Shown one piece after another: positions 37,997 to 42,251 of a DNA stretch of 44,515 bases. Source of the DNA: Desulfotignum sp. (GTDB lineage Bacteria; Desulfobacterota; Desulfobacteria; Desulfobacterales; Desulfobacteraceae); the NCBI GenBank assembly GCA_021737695.1, contig JAIPDL010000026.1:1-44515 (forward strand), in the 5' to 3' direction. How positions within the stretch are numbered: the first letter of the stretch is position 1; each line of letters starts with the position of its first letter. A model generated the notes under the pieces. The model did no database searches, had not been told where the DNA came from, and saw only the letters and a list, made by a program, of their open reading frames with translations. Both the position numbers and the translations under genes were made by a program.

Positions 37997-39772
37997 TCAG
38001 TATGGTTCCACATACGCATGGCGGCATTTCCCGTCCTTCAGGTTCACCAGTCCCTGCTCGCAGATCCGTATATAGGGGATGGCGGCACCGGTCAGGGTGA
38101 CCAGGGTCAGTAACGGGTCGGGAAACACCACCCCCAGCTTTGCAGCGGCTGTTTTGAGGGCCCGGATCTGCCGGGCCAGCTCAGGCACAGGCGCATCTGA
38201 CATGAGTCCCATCACGGGCAAAGGGATCTGGGCCAGACAAGTTCCTTTGCCCCAGATCACCACCCCGCCCTGGAGCCGGTGAATGTGGTTGACCGCGTCG
38301 GCCATGTCTGCATCATGGGTCCCCATCACCACGATGTCGGCGGTGTCCCATGCCTGGCTCGAGGCAATGGCGCCATGCGTTAACCCGAATCCTTTGATAA
38401 AGCCGGTGAACATGTTTCCGGGCGCAATGGCCCGGTCAATGGCACTGATTTTGAGGATATCCTGATCCTGATCCGTCTGAATCCGCCCGTGAATCACGGG
38501 CAGGGGCACAAGGGTTTCCCGGGTCACCAGGTCTGTGACCATTTCCATGAGCCGTACCTGCACGGTTTTTTTGCCTGGGGGCGCTGTGACGGCAAAGTCG
38601 TCAGGTGTCAGGGGCCGGGGCAGGTGAACGGAATGGCGGCAGGCGTTGGAAAACAAATGTGTCCGGGGGGAGACCTGCATCTGTCCCTGGTCAAAGATGA
38701 TTTTTCCATGACTGACCACCATTTCAGGGGTGATGGTACCCGGATCCGGAACGATCACCATATCCGCGCTTCGGCCCGGCGCAATGCCGCCCACCAGGGA
38801 ATCCAGTGAAAAATGTTCCGCCACGTTCAAGGTGGCCATCTGAACGGCTTCGACGGGAGAAAACCCTGAATCAATGGCCTTTTGGACCACAAAAGCCATG
38901 CCCTTGTTTTCCATGAGGTCTTCGGGCCCCACCCCGTCGGTGACCAGGATGAGACGTCTTGTATCCACGCCCGCATCCCTGATCCGGGCGATGGCCTCAA
39001 GATCCCTGCGGATGCTGCCTTCCCGGATCATGACGTACAATCCCAGCCGCAGTCGTTCCAGGACCTGGTCCGCGTCAATGGGTTCATGGCAGGAGGAGAT
39101 GCCCGTGGCCAGGTAGGCTGCCAGTTTTTTTCCGCCGGCCCCGGCGGAATGTCCTTCCAGCACCTTGCCGGCCCGCAGGGTGTCTTCAAATACGGGCAGG
39201 ATCTTCTCCGGTGTCTGAAACACCGCCTGCCAGTAAGATTCTCCCAGCCCCAGAATATCGTCCCGGTTCAGCAGTTTTTTTAAGTCATCCCCGGCAATGC
39301 CGCTGGCAGCCGTGCTGATGGACACCATGGCCGGGGCTGTGCCGAAAATCTTGATGGGCTGATTTTTGAATGAGGCCAGTATCTCAACCACACCCTCATA
39401 TCCCATGATGGGATAGGTTTCCATGGTTTCGGTGACAAGGGTGGTGGTGCCGTCCTTGACCGCATAGGGAATGAATTGGCTGATTTCAAAAAAAGAGGCC
39501 AGATGGGTGTGTCCGTCGATCAGGCCGGGAATCAGGGTTTTTCCCTGGACATCGATCACCGTGGTGTTTGATGCAATGGTGTGTTCTGCATGATCTCCCA
39601 CAAACGCGATATACCCGTTTTTGATGCTCACGGACTGATTCTGTAAAAATTCTCCGGTGTAGACGTTCAACAGCAATGCATTGACGATCACCAGATCGGC
39701 ACCTGATTTCCCGGAAGCGACCCGGATGAGTTCTTCCATGGTTCGGGCGGACAATGTGTGCGCGTTTTTCAT
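37997..39772 (-). CDS. ade: Adenine deaminase
   Basis: A 591-residue amidohydrolase-superfamily protein of adenine deaminase length. Metal-binding residues include the HxH in IPGLIDGHTHLASFFEI, ESYWQAVF, the histidine in LEGHSAGAGGK, SSCHEPI and the aspartate in LILVTDGVGPEDL. The C-terminal domain includes GLTHGAIASSQAWDTADIV, where the family's conserved region lies. It converts adenine to hypoxanthine plus ammonia in purine salvage. The 10-nt T run at 39781 (A run on the coding strand) lies just upstream of the AAGGG ribosome-binding site. Confidence 0.93.
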   Translation of the reverse strand: MKNAHTLSARTMEELIRVASGKSGADLVIVNALLLNVYTGEFLQNQSVSIKNGYIAFVGDHAEHTIASNTTVIDVQGKTLIPGLIDGHTHLASFFEISQFIPYAVKDGTTTLVTETMETYPIMGYEGVVEILASFKNQPIKIFGTAPAMVSISTAASGIAGDDLKKLLNRDDILGLGESYWQAVFQTPEKILPVFEDTLRAGKVLEGHSAGAGGKKLAAYLATGISSCHEPIDADQVLERLRLGLYVMIREGSIRRDLEAIARIRDAGVDTRRLILVTDGVGPEDLMENKGMAFVVQKAIDSGFSPVEAVQMATLNVAEHFSLDSLVGGIAPGRSADMVIVPDPGTITPEMVVSHGKIIFDQGQMQVSPRTHLFSNACRHSVHLPRPLTPDDFAVTAPPGKKTVQVRLMEMVTDLVTRETLVPLPVIHGRIQTDQDQDILKISAIDRAIAPGNMFTGFIKGFGLTHGAIASSQAWDTADIVVMGTHDADMADAVNHIHRLQGGVVIWGKGTCLAQIPLPVMGLMSDAPVPELARQIRALKTAAAKLGVVFPDPLLTLVTLTGAAIPYIRICEQGLVNLKDGKCRHAYVEPY

Positions 39773-40030: not shown

Positions 40031-40064
40031 TGAATAGAATCAGAATAACGACGAGGTGGACTAT

Positions 40065-40289
40065 ATGACAGCTATAACCGAGAGAGTGCTCAATGATGCG
40101 CTATCCCTGTCGCCCATTGAGAGGGCTGAGTTGATTCAACGCCTCTTTCAGAGTTTCGATGTCTCTAAGGACAATCATATCGATACTGCATGGACAGAAG
40201 AGGTTGACTCCAGGGTCGAAGCATACGGCAAAGGTTTGCTGACAGCTTCCTCGGCAGAGGACGTTCTGGCCAGGATCAACCGGCGATGA
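40065..40289 (+). CDS. Addiction-module antitoxin (CHP02574/PF09720 family)
   Basis: A 74-residue acidic protein. The N-terminal half has ALSLSPIERAELIQRLFQSF and the end AWTEEVDSRVEAY, the pattern of the putative addiction-module component family. It should bind and neutralise the RelE/ParE-type toxin encoded next, with which it overlaps by 4 nt (ATGA). GAGGTGG supports ATG 40065 over the GTG at 40056. Confidence 0.85.
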   Translation: MTAITERVLNDALSLSPIERAELIQRLFQSFDVSKDNHIDTAWTEEVDSRVEAYGKGLLTASSAEDVLARINRR

Positions 40290-40597
40290 GAATACTCGTC
40301 CTCTCATGTGCGGAAGACGAATTCGCTGAAGCCGTTGACTACTACAATCTACAGCGCCCTGGCTTGGGCTTTGAGTTTGCCGGGGAAGTACAACGTACAT
40401 TCGAGCGGATCCGACATCATCCAGAAGCTTGGCCGGTGTTTTCAAGCCGAGCCCGGAGATGCCTCACCGACCGATTCCCCTTCGGTGTGCTATACCAAGT
40501 TCGCAGAGACTGCCTCCTGGTAGGAGCCATCATGCATCTCAAGCGTGAACCGACGCGCTGGCAGCAGAGAATAGCTGACGCTTTCGGCAAACAGTAG
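40286..40597 (+). CDS. RelE/ParE-family toxin
   Basis: A 103-residue toxin of the RelE/ParE fold. Signature pieces are EDEFAEAVDYYNLQRPGLGFEF, quoted in part as AEAVDYYNLQRPGLG, then RRCLTDRFPFGVLYQV and AIMHLKREPTRWQQR. It is complete. ParE members poison gyrase while RelE members cleave mRNA; the sequence does not decide. Coupled to the antitoxin by an ATGA overlap. Confidence 0.85.
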   Translation: MRILVLSCAEDEFAEAVDYYNLQRPGLGFEFAGEVQRTFERIRHHPEAWPVFSSRARRCLTDRFPFGVLYQVRRDCLLVGAIMHLKREPTRWQQRIADAFGKQ

Positions 40598-40681: not shown

Positions 40682-40741
40682 AAAAGTTTCCAAAACGCCA
40701 CATAATAATGGATACCCATCCAAAACCTGACAGGGCCAAAA

Positions 40742-40924
40742 TCATCGGGAAGCAATCTGTGGAAAAACAAGCTGGAATCCGATGAGGGCACAGGAGTAGT
40801 CCTCGGGTGCCCTGTGGCGGAAGGCCGAACGGACCTGAACTGGGTTGCCGATCCAACTGCCTCCCCGGTAAACCCCAAAGGGGTTTTTTCGGTGAGATCT
40901 CAGGCTTGTTGGGGGGCTTGTCAT
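40742..40924 (-). pseudogene. 3' relic of a formylglycine-generating-enzyme / C-type-lectin-fold protein
   Basis: Only the last part of the protein is recognisable: VYRGGSWIGNPVQVRSAF, then RHRAPEDYSCALIGFQLVFPQ, followed by IASR and a stop. This matches the FGE/SUMF1 C-terminus (RGGSW...RSA.R...P..R....GFRLV). The upstream catalytic body is missing: ahead of RGGSW the frame runs through a hairpin (40870-40889) and unrelated sequence. The variable positions are almost all NNC codons (ATC, GGC, AAC, TTC, CGC, CAC, GAC, TAC, TCC, GCC, CTC), as seen in variable regions of diversity-generating retroelements. No reverse transcriptase is in the window. Confidence 0.65.
40870..40889 (+). terminator. 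Possible intrinsic terminator behind the first toxin-antitoxin module
   Basis: AAACCCC-AAA-GGGGTTT with TTT following. A compact 7-bp stem with a run of six T; it is 272 nt past the toxin stop, so it may belong to the relic and not to the module. Confidence 0.4.
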
Positions 40925-41053
40925 TGAGACGGTTTGAATAGGGGTATTTACGCTTTTTGCAATTATGCAGCGGGGTCTGCTTCTATCAGCTGAATGTTGG
41001 AGATCAGGTCGAAACTAAGAAAATGGTTTTAATCCGGTAAATAGGAGGCTGAA

Positions 41054-41293
41054 ATGTCAACCACATTAACGTTGGAAATTCCCGATCACATTTATCGACC
41101 TTTACTGAAAAAGGCTGATAAATGTGGGAAAACTCTCGACCAGATATTGATTGAATGGATGGGAGATGTAGTAAAGGATGAGCTGGATGATCCTTTATTA
41201 AAAATGGCAGGGGTTTTTTCTTCTGATATCGAAGATATTAGCTCAAATCATGATTTTTATATCGGACAAGAATTGAGGAATGTCCATGAATGA
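41054..41293 (+). CDS. Antitoxin-like small protein of the PIN pair
   Basis: A 79-residue protein. TLTLEIPDHIYRPLLKKADKCGKT resembles the antitoxin family that precedes PIN-domain toxins (short strand, then helices), with an acidic tail. AGGAGG precedes the ATG. Its last codons overlap the toxin start by 8 nt. Base composition is more AT-rich than in the housekeeping region, which fits acquisition. Confidence 0.7.
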   Translation: MSTTLTLEIPDHIYRPLLKKADKCGKTLDQILIEWMGDVVKDELDDPLLKMAGVFSSDIEDISSNHDFYIGQELRNVHE

Positions 41294-41684
41294 GGTTTTC
41301 GCTGATACTTCCGGCTGGGCCAATTATTTTGTCCGAACTGAGCCGTTTCATCAAGATGCTAAAGAGTTGATGCAGCAATGGTATAAAGATAAAATCCTTG
41401 TCATCACAACGAATTATATCCTTTTGGAGCTTGTCGCTTTGTTCATGAGTCCGCTCAGAATACCGCGTCTGAAGCAAATCCAAGCGATTGAGACAATCAA
41501 GGCTGTTGATTGGATCGAAATCATCCATGTTGACAAGAATTTAGATGATAAAACTTGGCAATTTCTAAAGGAACGAGATGATAAGATGTGGAATTTCACG
41601 GAAGGCAAGCTGCACGCCATACGGATTGATGCCGGTTCCGGAAAGCATTTCCAGAAGTTCAGCCCCGGGATCGGCTTGGGCTAA
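41286..41684 (+). pseudogene. PIN-domain (VapC-like) toxin, C-terminus lost
   Basis: The N-terminus is a normal PIN domain: NEVFADTSGWANYF with the first acidic residue and YILLELVALFMSPLR with the second. Up to FLKERDDKMW it follows the family, but the expected continuation WSLxDCxSF with the last acidic residues is replaced by FTEGKLHAIRIDAG and an accidental tail. The AT-rich gene switches to GC-rich sequence near 41,590. The toxin should therefore be inactive. GAGGA precedes ATG 41286. Confidence 0.75.
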
Positions 41685-41720: not shown

Positions 41721-42251
41721 CTACATCCACAGGTATAAAAAGCACCCGATGTATATCAAGGCGGCGGACAGGGCGATTCCCATCCGGACGAAAGACAGTT
41801 CAAACGCATTCTGGATCATTCTTGCCGTCACTGCCAGTCCATAAACGCCCATTATAACACAAAGGGCAATAATGGCAAAACCGGGAGAAAATTGTGACTG
41901 AAACATGGCCAGAAACGGGGCCACCGGCCACAGGGAAATGGCGGCAACGCCGAGAGTGAAATAGGCAGTCAGAAAAGAGGCGTTTCCGCCCAGGGCTTTC
42001 AGGAACACCCAGATGAACAATGCGGCCCCGGCATGCATGAGAAACGCCGCTGGAATGCCGGCCAGGGTCAGCTTAAGCAATCCCTGACCCAGAAGCATAT
42101 CCCGGCTGAGCCAGGCGGCAGTGCCTCCGTAGATCAGCCCCAGGACGGACACATGAAACATGCAGATCCAGGGCAGAAGATTCAGAGGCAGTTGCCGGAC
42201 ACCCGTTGGGTCCAGTCCGGCAAGCCGGGTCATGGCGGCGGAGTAGGTCAT
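41721..42251 (-). CDS. Yip1-like multi-pass membrane protein
   Basis: A 176-residue protein with about five hydrophobic segments (for example MFHVSVLGLIYGGTAAW, AAFLMHAGAALFIWVFL, LTAYFTLGVAAISLWPVA, FAIIALCVIMGVYGLAV, GIALSAALIYIGCFLYLW). The layout fits the Yip1/YIP1-family fold, but similarity is weak and the function unknown. It follows the symporter gene on the same strand, 146 nt later. AAGGA, formed by the last of four heptamer repeats, precedes the ATG. Confidence 0.6.
   Translation of the reverse strand: MTYSAAMTRLAGLDPTGVRQLPLNLLPWICMFHVSVLGLIYGGTAAWLSRDMLLGQGLLKLTLAGIPAAFLMHAGAALFIWVFLKALGGNASFLTAYFTLGVAAISLWPVAPFLAMFQSQFSPGFAIIALCVIMGVYGLAVTARMIQNAFELSFVRMGIALSAALIYIGCFLYLWM

Follow-up and report, generated by a model that had tools for sequence, protein, structure and literature searches.

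What does a short patch of Desulfotignum sp. DNA represent, in which the end of a formylglycine-generating-enzyme (FGE) fold can be read from the minus strand in codons that largely end in C: a target of a diversity-generating retroelement (DGR), or the leftover of a lost gene? The patch lies in the window analysed here, a stretch of 44,515 nucleotides (contig JAIPDL010000026.1 of assembly GCA_021737695.1) from a genome (G000) of 4.21 Mb in 158 contigs that is 88% complete. A sequence-only reading had described the patch as the C-terminal relic of an FGE/C-type-lectin-fold protein without its gene body, and had taken its NNC codons as the mark of a DGR variable region, either abandoned or remote. 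The description as a relic is borne out, and the patch is very probably the deletion scar of an FGE gene that formed part of a conflict-type island. The remnant comprises the following features:

40731..40950, minus strand: scar, the 3' end of a lost FGE-sulfatase-like gene with about 11 bp past its stop, 87.7% identical over 220 bp to G011 C1:3337348-3337566
40769..40867, minus strand: 33 codons RGGSW...GFQL, the counterpart of the DGR template/variable core of relatives
40742..40924, minus strand: mechanical 60-aa ORF across the scar, whose frame shifts against that of the intact orthologue

What the scar keeps of an FGE-sulfatase-fold (PF03781) gene is its final 70 or so codons, truncated and frameshifted. 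The fragment matches positions 204-254 of the 255 in the profile with an E-value of 2.6e-4 and 21.2 bits, slightly below the cut-off of 23.3, and it thus spans 51 of the 255 positions rather than a full-length domain above the gathering score. A scan of the whole genome recovered the same match at 40766-40930 with the gene body absent, along with one other hit to PF03781, which belongs to a separate paralog. The 43 sense codons running from VYRGGSW to the stop share one frame, while the stretch upstream is homologous to the intact gene of the congener G011 in a different frame, a three-way alignment placing the frameshift just 5' of the RGGSW codons. The ORF at 40742-40924 is therefore not one ancestral reading frame, and its first part is not ancestral protein. 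That this ORF encodes a functional small protein is highly improbable: it is open, but its N-terminal part reads outside the ancestral frame, an FGE-fold fragment this short should not fold, and the corresponding remnant in another congener, G008, has a different upstream part. As the remnant is truncated and frameshifted, a protein of the FGE kind is not expected from it. Among viral contigs one locus matched, covering only residues 1-18, which is the out-of-frame part of the ORF, and the plasmid sequences searched with the patch gave no match.

The origin of the fragment has been traced through a set of 59 genomes, comprising its own, those of 12 congeners and a further 23 each from the family and the order. 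The 60-aa ORF was matched at E <= 0.01 in 15 of them, its own included, and the best non-self match was the end of an intact 305-codon gene in G011, adjoined, like the patch, by the deaminase gene. As orthologues, the two share locus, orientation and high nucleotide identity, which amounts to 94.6% over 3.8 kb in the deaminase/FeoB flank, against the lower figure given above for the patch. The site is bounded by two conserved neighbours:

37997..39772, minus strand: adenine-deaminase-like gene (a name given here), the conserved left neighbour in G000, G008, G010 and G011
41721..42251, minus strand: gene for a 176-aa membrane protein, likewise conserved, flanking the site on the right

Of the 13 genus genomes, the deaminase gene was detected in 6 (including G006, with a 56% relative) and the gene for the 176-aa protein in 10; both lie close together on one contig in G000, G008 and G010. 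Several states of a single site can thereby be compared. In G010 the site is empty, with 76 bp separating the two flank homologies, whereas the corresponding points of G011 (3,297,563 and 3,337,648) are about 40.1 kb apart, and the 305-codon gene closes this island of conflict-type genes, of some 40 kb. In G008 the FGE end persists over 111 bp and adjoins a small gene common to G011 (96.3% over 653 bp), and there is a second scrap of 91 bp (L039:8705-8795, 83.5%) that corresponds to the end of an FtsZ-like gene of the G011 island; the scraps stand in the same order and orientation as in G011. In G009 (L219, L220) the two flanks break off at almost identical points and enter unrelated genes on two contigs, with no island match in the 6 kb and 12 kb of flank sequence, so that this genome is rearranged here and uninformative; its site looks like a rearrangement hot spot.

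In the window itself, the 220-bp scar is flanked by two toxin-antitoxin pairs:

40056..40289, plus strand: antitoxin (PF09720 / TIGR02574) of the pair on the deaminase side of the scar
40286..40597, plus strand: ParE-like toxin, partner of the PF09720 antitoxin (PF05016, E 0.002, below cut-off)
41054..41293, plus strand: probable antitoxin of the second pair, assigned by position and size, without a family match
41280..41684, plus strand: PIN-domain-like toxin of the second pair (PF13470, E 8e-4, below cut-off)

Directly before a toxin-antitoxin pair, at window positions 40966-41040 on the plus strand, a tail of 24 codons has been observed. It has no Pfam match, is apparently similar to the last part of a FlgD-Ig/type 9 secretion sorting domain, and may derive from the gene that preceded the pair in the donor and came in with it. 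A blastn comparison of window positions 40951-41638 with the G011 island returned zero matches, and the right-hand breakpoint is consequently not pinned. The presence of the two pairs, and of this tail at 40966-41040, which has the look of an unrelated gene's terminus, would suit an origin of the patch as a piece of a foreign FGE gene imported with a toxin-antitoxin pair rather than as a deletion leftover. Such an import is nonetheless quite improbable, since the G011 gene occupies the same place and orientation at 87.7% identity with shared neighbours, and since this 3' end abuts, in G008, the small gene that G011 also carries.

The content of the intact island (L217, L149 and L038; C1:3,297,564-3,337,647) has been described from a Pfam scan of 17 proteins; the island has further ORFs, one of 2028 aa among them. 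Its right side encodes an nSTAND1-WD40-FGE protein of 1644 aa, a protein with an FtsZ C-terminal domain, two HSP90-like ATPases, HEAT repeats, the FGE protein and three proteins without a Pfam match. On the left side are vWA, a RelA/SpoT-RyR protein with a weak SLOG match, TIR-TPR, a trypsin with a weak kinase match, WD40, a sigma-54 activator, an ABC transporter and one protein without a match. PADLOC, run on eight island proteins, gave a weak TmtA match and a HEAT-ARM match, which adds little. This mix of genes resembles the STAND and ternary conflict systems described in the available portions of two publications (PMC10907252, PMC7159879), and the role of the island is inferred from it; the lost DNA was probably a defensive block. 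The FtsZ-like/HSP90-like/HEAT part was also considered as a partner conserved alongside this branch of FGE proteins and rejected, the set having been found in 0 of the 91 relative loci compared, out of 251 (tblastn, E 1e-5). The FtsZ-like, ATPase and HEAT genes may form a distinct conflict system.

Island loss that left different remnants in G000 and G008 is the simplest account of these site states, with an order of events that we infer. An ancestor would have carried, between the genes for the 176-aa membrane protein and the deaminase, a conflict-type island with nSTAND-WD40-FGE, TIR-TPR, trypsin, vWA, FtsZ-like, HSP90-like ATPase and HEAT-repeat genes and with the single-domain FGE-fold gene last. 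In the lineage of the window nearly the whole island would then have been lost, leaving the truncated and frameshifted FGE end at a break that toxin-antitoxin pairs now flank. As a counterpoint, the empty site of G010 may be ancestral. A pseudogene is in itself ordinary, and the value of this scar is comparative: at one site within one genus there occur an island of about 40 kb, an empty state and two different scars, a series in which the gain and loss of conflict-type islands can be followed closely.

It remains to consider whether the lost gene had any connection with a DGR. The sequence-only reading had called its family a known DGR target fold, and in related bacteria this is well founded. 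A search of the examined loci for the RGGSW...GFR core revealed eight adenine-rich repeats, mostly in Desulfobacterota, each with 9-10 AAC/AAT codons of 33 and without a long open frame:

L033/L199, L026, L030, L071, L077, L181, L188 and L019: FGE-type template repeats

In six variable regions from three genomes, all 79 of the 79 differences from the genome's own template fall at adenines, and the non-adenine bases match throughout (73/73 twice, 71/71 twice and 70/70 twice). Among 13 variable-region candidates with a known template in their genome, these six are perfect at non-adenine bases and four reach 0.92-0.96, while three Desulfamplus tails (L027, L031, L035) fail to match the template of their own genome. 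Five of the eight templates have an RVT_1 match at a distance of about 1 kb or less, the one in D. latus being below the cut-off; no enzyme was seen beside the templates of HSG8 and G032 or beside the second D. latus template. Reverse transcriptases of DGR type, for which we take the GxxxSQ motif as the mark, were found in 6 of the 16 genomes searched, within the 30 loci L170-L199 only. The pattern of differences indicates that the FGE C-terminus is, in these relatives, a true DGR target. FGE domains have already been described as DGR targets in conflict systems, as the available part of that source relates (PMC10907252).

No RVT_1 reverse transcriptase match was found in G000, the same search being positive in 3 of 14 control genomes, and this speaks against a link to a working DGR; as the genome is 88% complete, a DGR could lie in its missing sequence. 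A second copy of the patch is absent from G000, where the next best match is 30 bp at 83%. None of the 13 genus genomes yielded an FGE-type template: the 30 matches at E <= 1 each hold at most 3 AAC/AAT codons of 33, whereas the same query, although composed from templates of the control group itself, recovered a template in 7 of 7 control genomes (E 2.9e-9 to 1.7e-16). When the 3' end of the G011 gene was compared by blastn with G011, G008 and G000, nothing besides the locus itself fell under E 0.4. The differences that would be expected at template adenines are likewise not concentrated there. Between relic and G011 they number 2 of 20 at the first two bases of template-adenine codons, 7 of 79 in the rest of the core and 17 of 120 in the flanks; 8 of the 10 template-adenine codons and 16 of the 19 NNC codons of the relic are identical in G011. 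Nothing in this comparison points to diversification since the lineage of the window and G011 split. It is accordingly exceedingly unlikely that the patch is a remote target under continuing mutagenesis by a DGR encoded elsewhere in the genome. All that favours this is the fold, the codon bias and the precedent of remote targets in the accessible text of PMC10907252; the gene body is lost, the frame is broken, and neither reverse transcriptase nor template was detected in G000. Of the two fates first proposed for the patch, the remote one was thus rejected, and the abandoned one may hold, at odds below even.

The codon bias from which the DGR proposal arose is real. Of the 21 codons taken as variable, at positions chosen after the fact in the sequence-only reading, 14 end in C, against 7.45 expected from the codon usage of the window (p = 0.0013), and at least 14 are reached by only 11 of 8879 windows of 21 codons from the longer ORFs of the stretch. 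Over all 43 scar codons the excess is smaller (19 against 14.4 expected, p = 0.07). G011 has the bias at the same 21 positions (p 0.0018), while its gene body lacks it (88/262 against 84.4 expected). At the template-adenine codons NNC occurs in 7 of 10 cases in the relic and in 9 of 10 in each of the six confirmed variable regions. Across 45 motifs of the FGE family, a count that mixes confirmed targets with others, NNC makes up 501 of 962 codons against 327.6 expected, with p < 0.01 in 17 of the 45. The bias is, however, not diagnostic. A paralog group of the genus, with 14 copies in 12 of the 13 genomes, falls into two sub-types whose protein cores are nearly fixed in all but one copy, and it shows NNC at 5-8 of 10 template-adenine codons (n=14 copies) and 10-14 of 21 codons ending in C (p 0.003-0.097; four copies among the best 30 of the 45 motifs). 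The copy in G003 differs from the commonest form at 5 of 20 template-adenine positions and 10 of 79 others, a result that counts against this control; in the remaining copies, 0-1 of 20 template-adenine positions differ within a sub-type. Because a conserved paralog scores similarly, NNC codons are rejected as proof of DGR action, and a run of them in an FGE tail does not by itself establish a DGR. A further truncated FGE tail occurs in the congener G002 (C55; L222:944-1264, minus strand), with NNC at 9 of 10 template-adenine codons and its body piece in another frame; it is possibly a second retired target.

The past of the scar gene can also be approached through the intact body of its G011 orthologue. 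In a tree built with the C-terminus omitted, and leaving out 3 long-branch rows of 62, it falls in a clade of 10 rows with 100/100 support, three of which are matched to templates of their own genomes. This placement and the codon bias of the scar also fit a retired DGR target, namely an ancestor that was diversified until its retroelement was lost, the variable region then being frozen and the gene deleted with its island. Such a history refines the deletion-scar reading and is not opposed to it, and is regarded as a tentative possibility. Codon 19, AGG as in six of the eight templates, agrees with it, as do the NNC excess throughout the family and the likeness of the G011 island to the DGR-linked conflict systems covered by the available sections of PMC10907252 and PMC7159879. 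Against it, 3 of the 10 codons break the NNC rule, a conserved paralog carries a similar bias, and the core matches the non-adenine bases of a template at only 49 of 71 positions (0.69), which ranks it 20th of the 52 cores of exactly 33 codons compared. In the same comparison the nine rows matched to a template score 0.73-0.79 even with foreign ones; a further nine, for which no template is known, reach 0.72-0.89, and the rest lie at 0.51-0.70. The tree sister of the G011 gene, L031 of Desulfamplus (support 80/71), reaches 0.66 to the template of its own genome and is unmatched to it. Since the gene comes from an FGE branch that supplies DGR targets to other bacteria, Desulfobacterota for the most part, its target-like look is explained. 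The family resemblance is real, and DGR action at the scar gene is unproven. More speculatively, and at odds below even, the scar may be the fossil of a DGR-diversified sensor, in which one receptor version was frozen after loss of the retroelement and before the whole conflict island was deleted. If so, the variable region would mark a lost immune locus, and scars of this type could help to date past losses of DGR-based immunity and to count them.

A DGR does exist within the genus, in a prophage of G011 (L168/L169, C1:118185-121130), where a putative tail target, Avd and reverse transcriptase stand in a row:

G011 119445-119807: prophage Avd (phrog_3206, 'Avd protein of DGR')
G011 C1:120069-121130: prophage reverse transcriptase

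As a source of templates for the FGE gene this element was rejected. In the 40 kb around it no template of the FGE core was found, an adenine-tolerant gapless scan having found nothing longer than 21 bp; one 18-bp match in that scan sits in the tail gene of the prophage.

Compared with known systems, the scar shares with the PF03781 FGE-sulfatase family a match to the C-terminal positions of the profile, and differs as a pseudogene that lacks about 200 profile positions. The prophage element is comparable as a DGR inside the genus, and is set apart by its phage-tail neighbourhood, and its own putative target; it shows no link to the FGE gene. DGR-diversified FGE proteins, as presented in the available parts of PMC10907252 and PMC7159879, offer the closest parallel. 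They differ in that the window has a broken 3' end only, with reverse transcriptase and template undetected, and in that the G011 orthologue is a single-domain protein in whose genome an FGE-type template was not found. The FGE (C-type-lectin) fold with its RGGSW...GFRL end is shared with them, as is an island setting with nSTAND, WD40, TIR, trypsin and vWA, and the body of the intact gene groups with confirmed targets.
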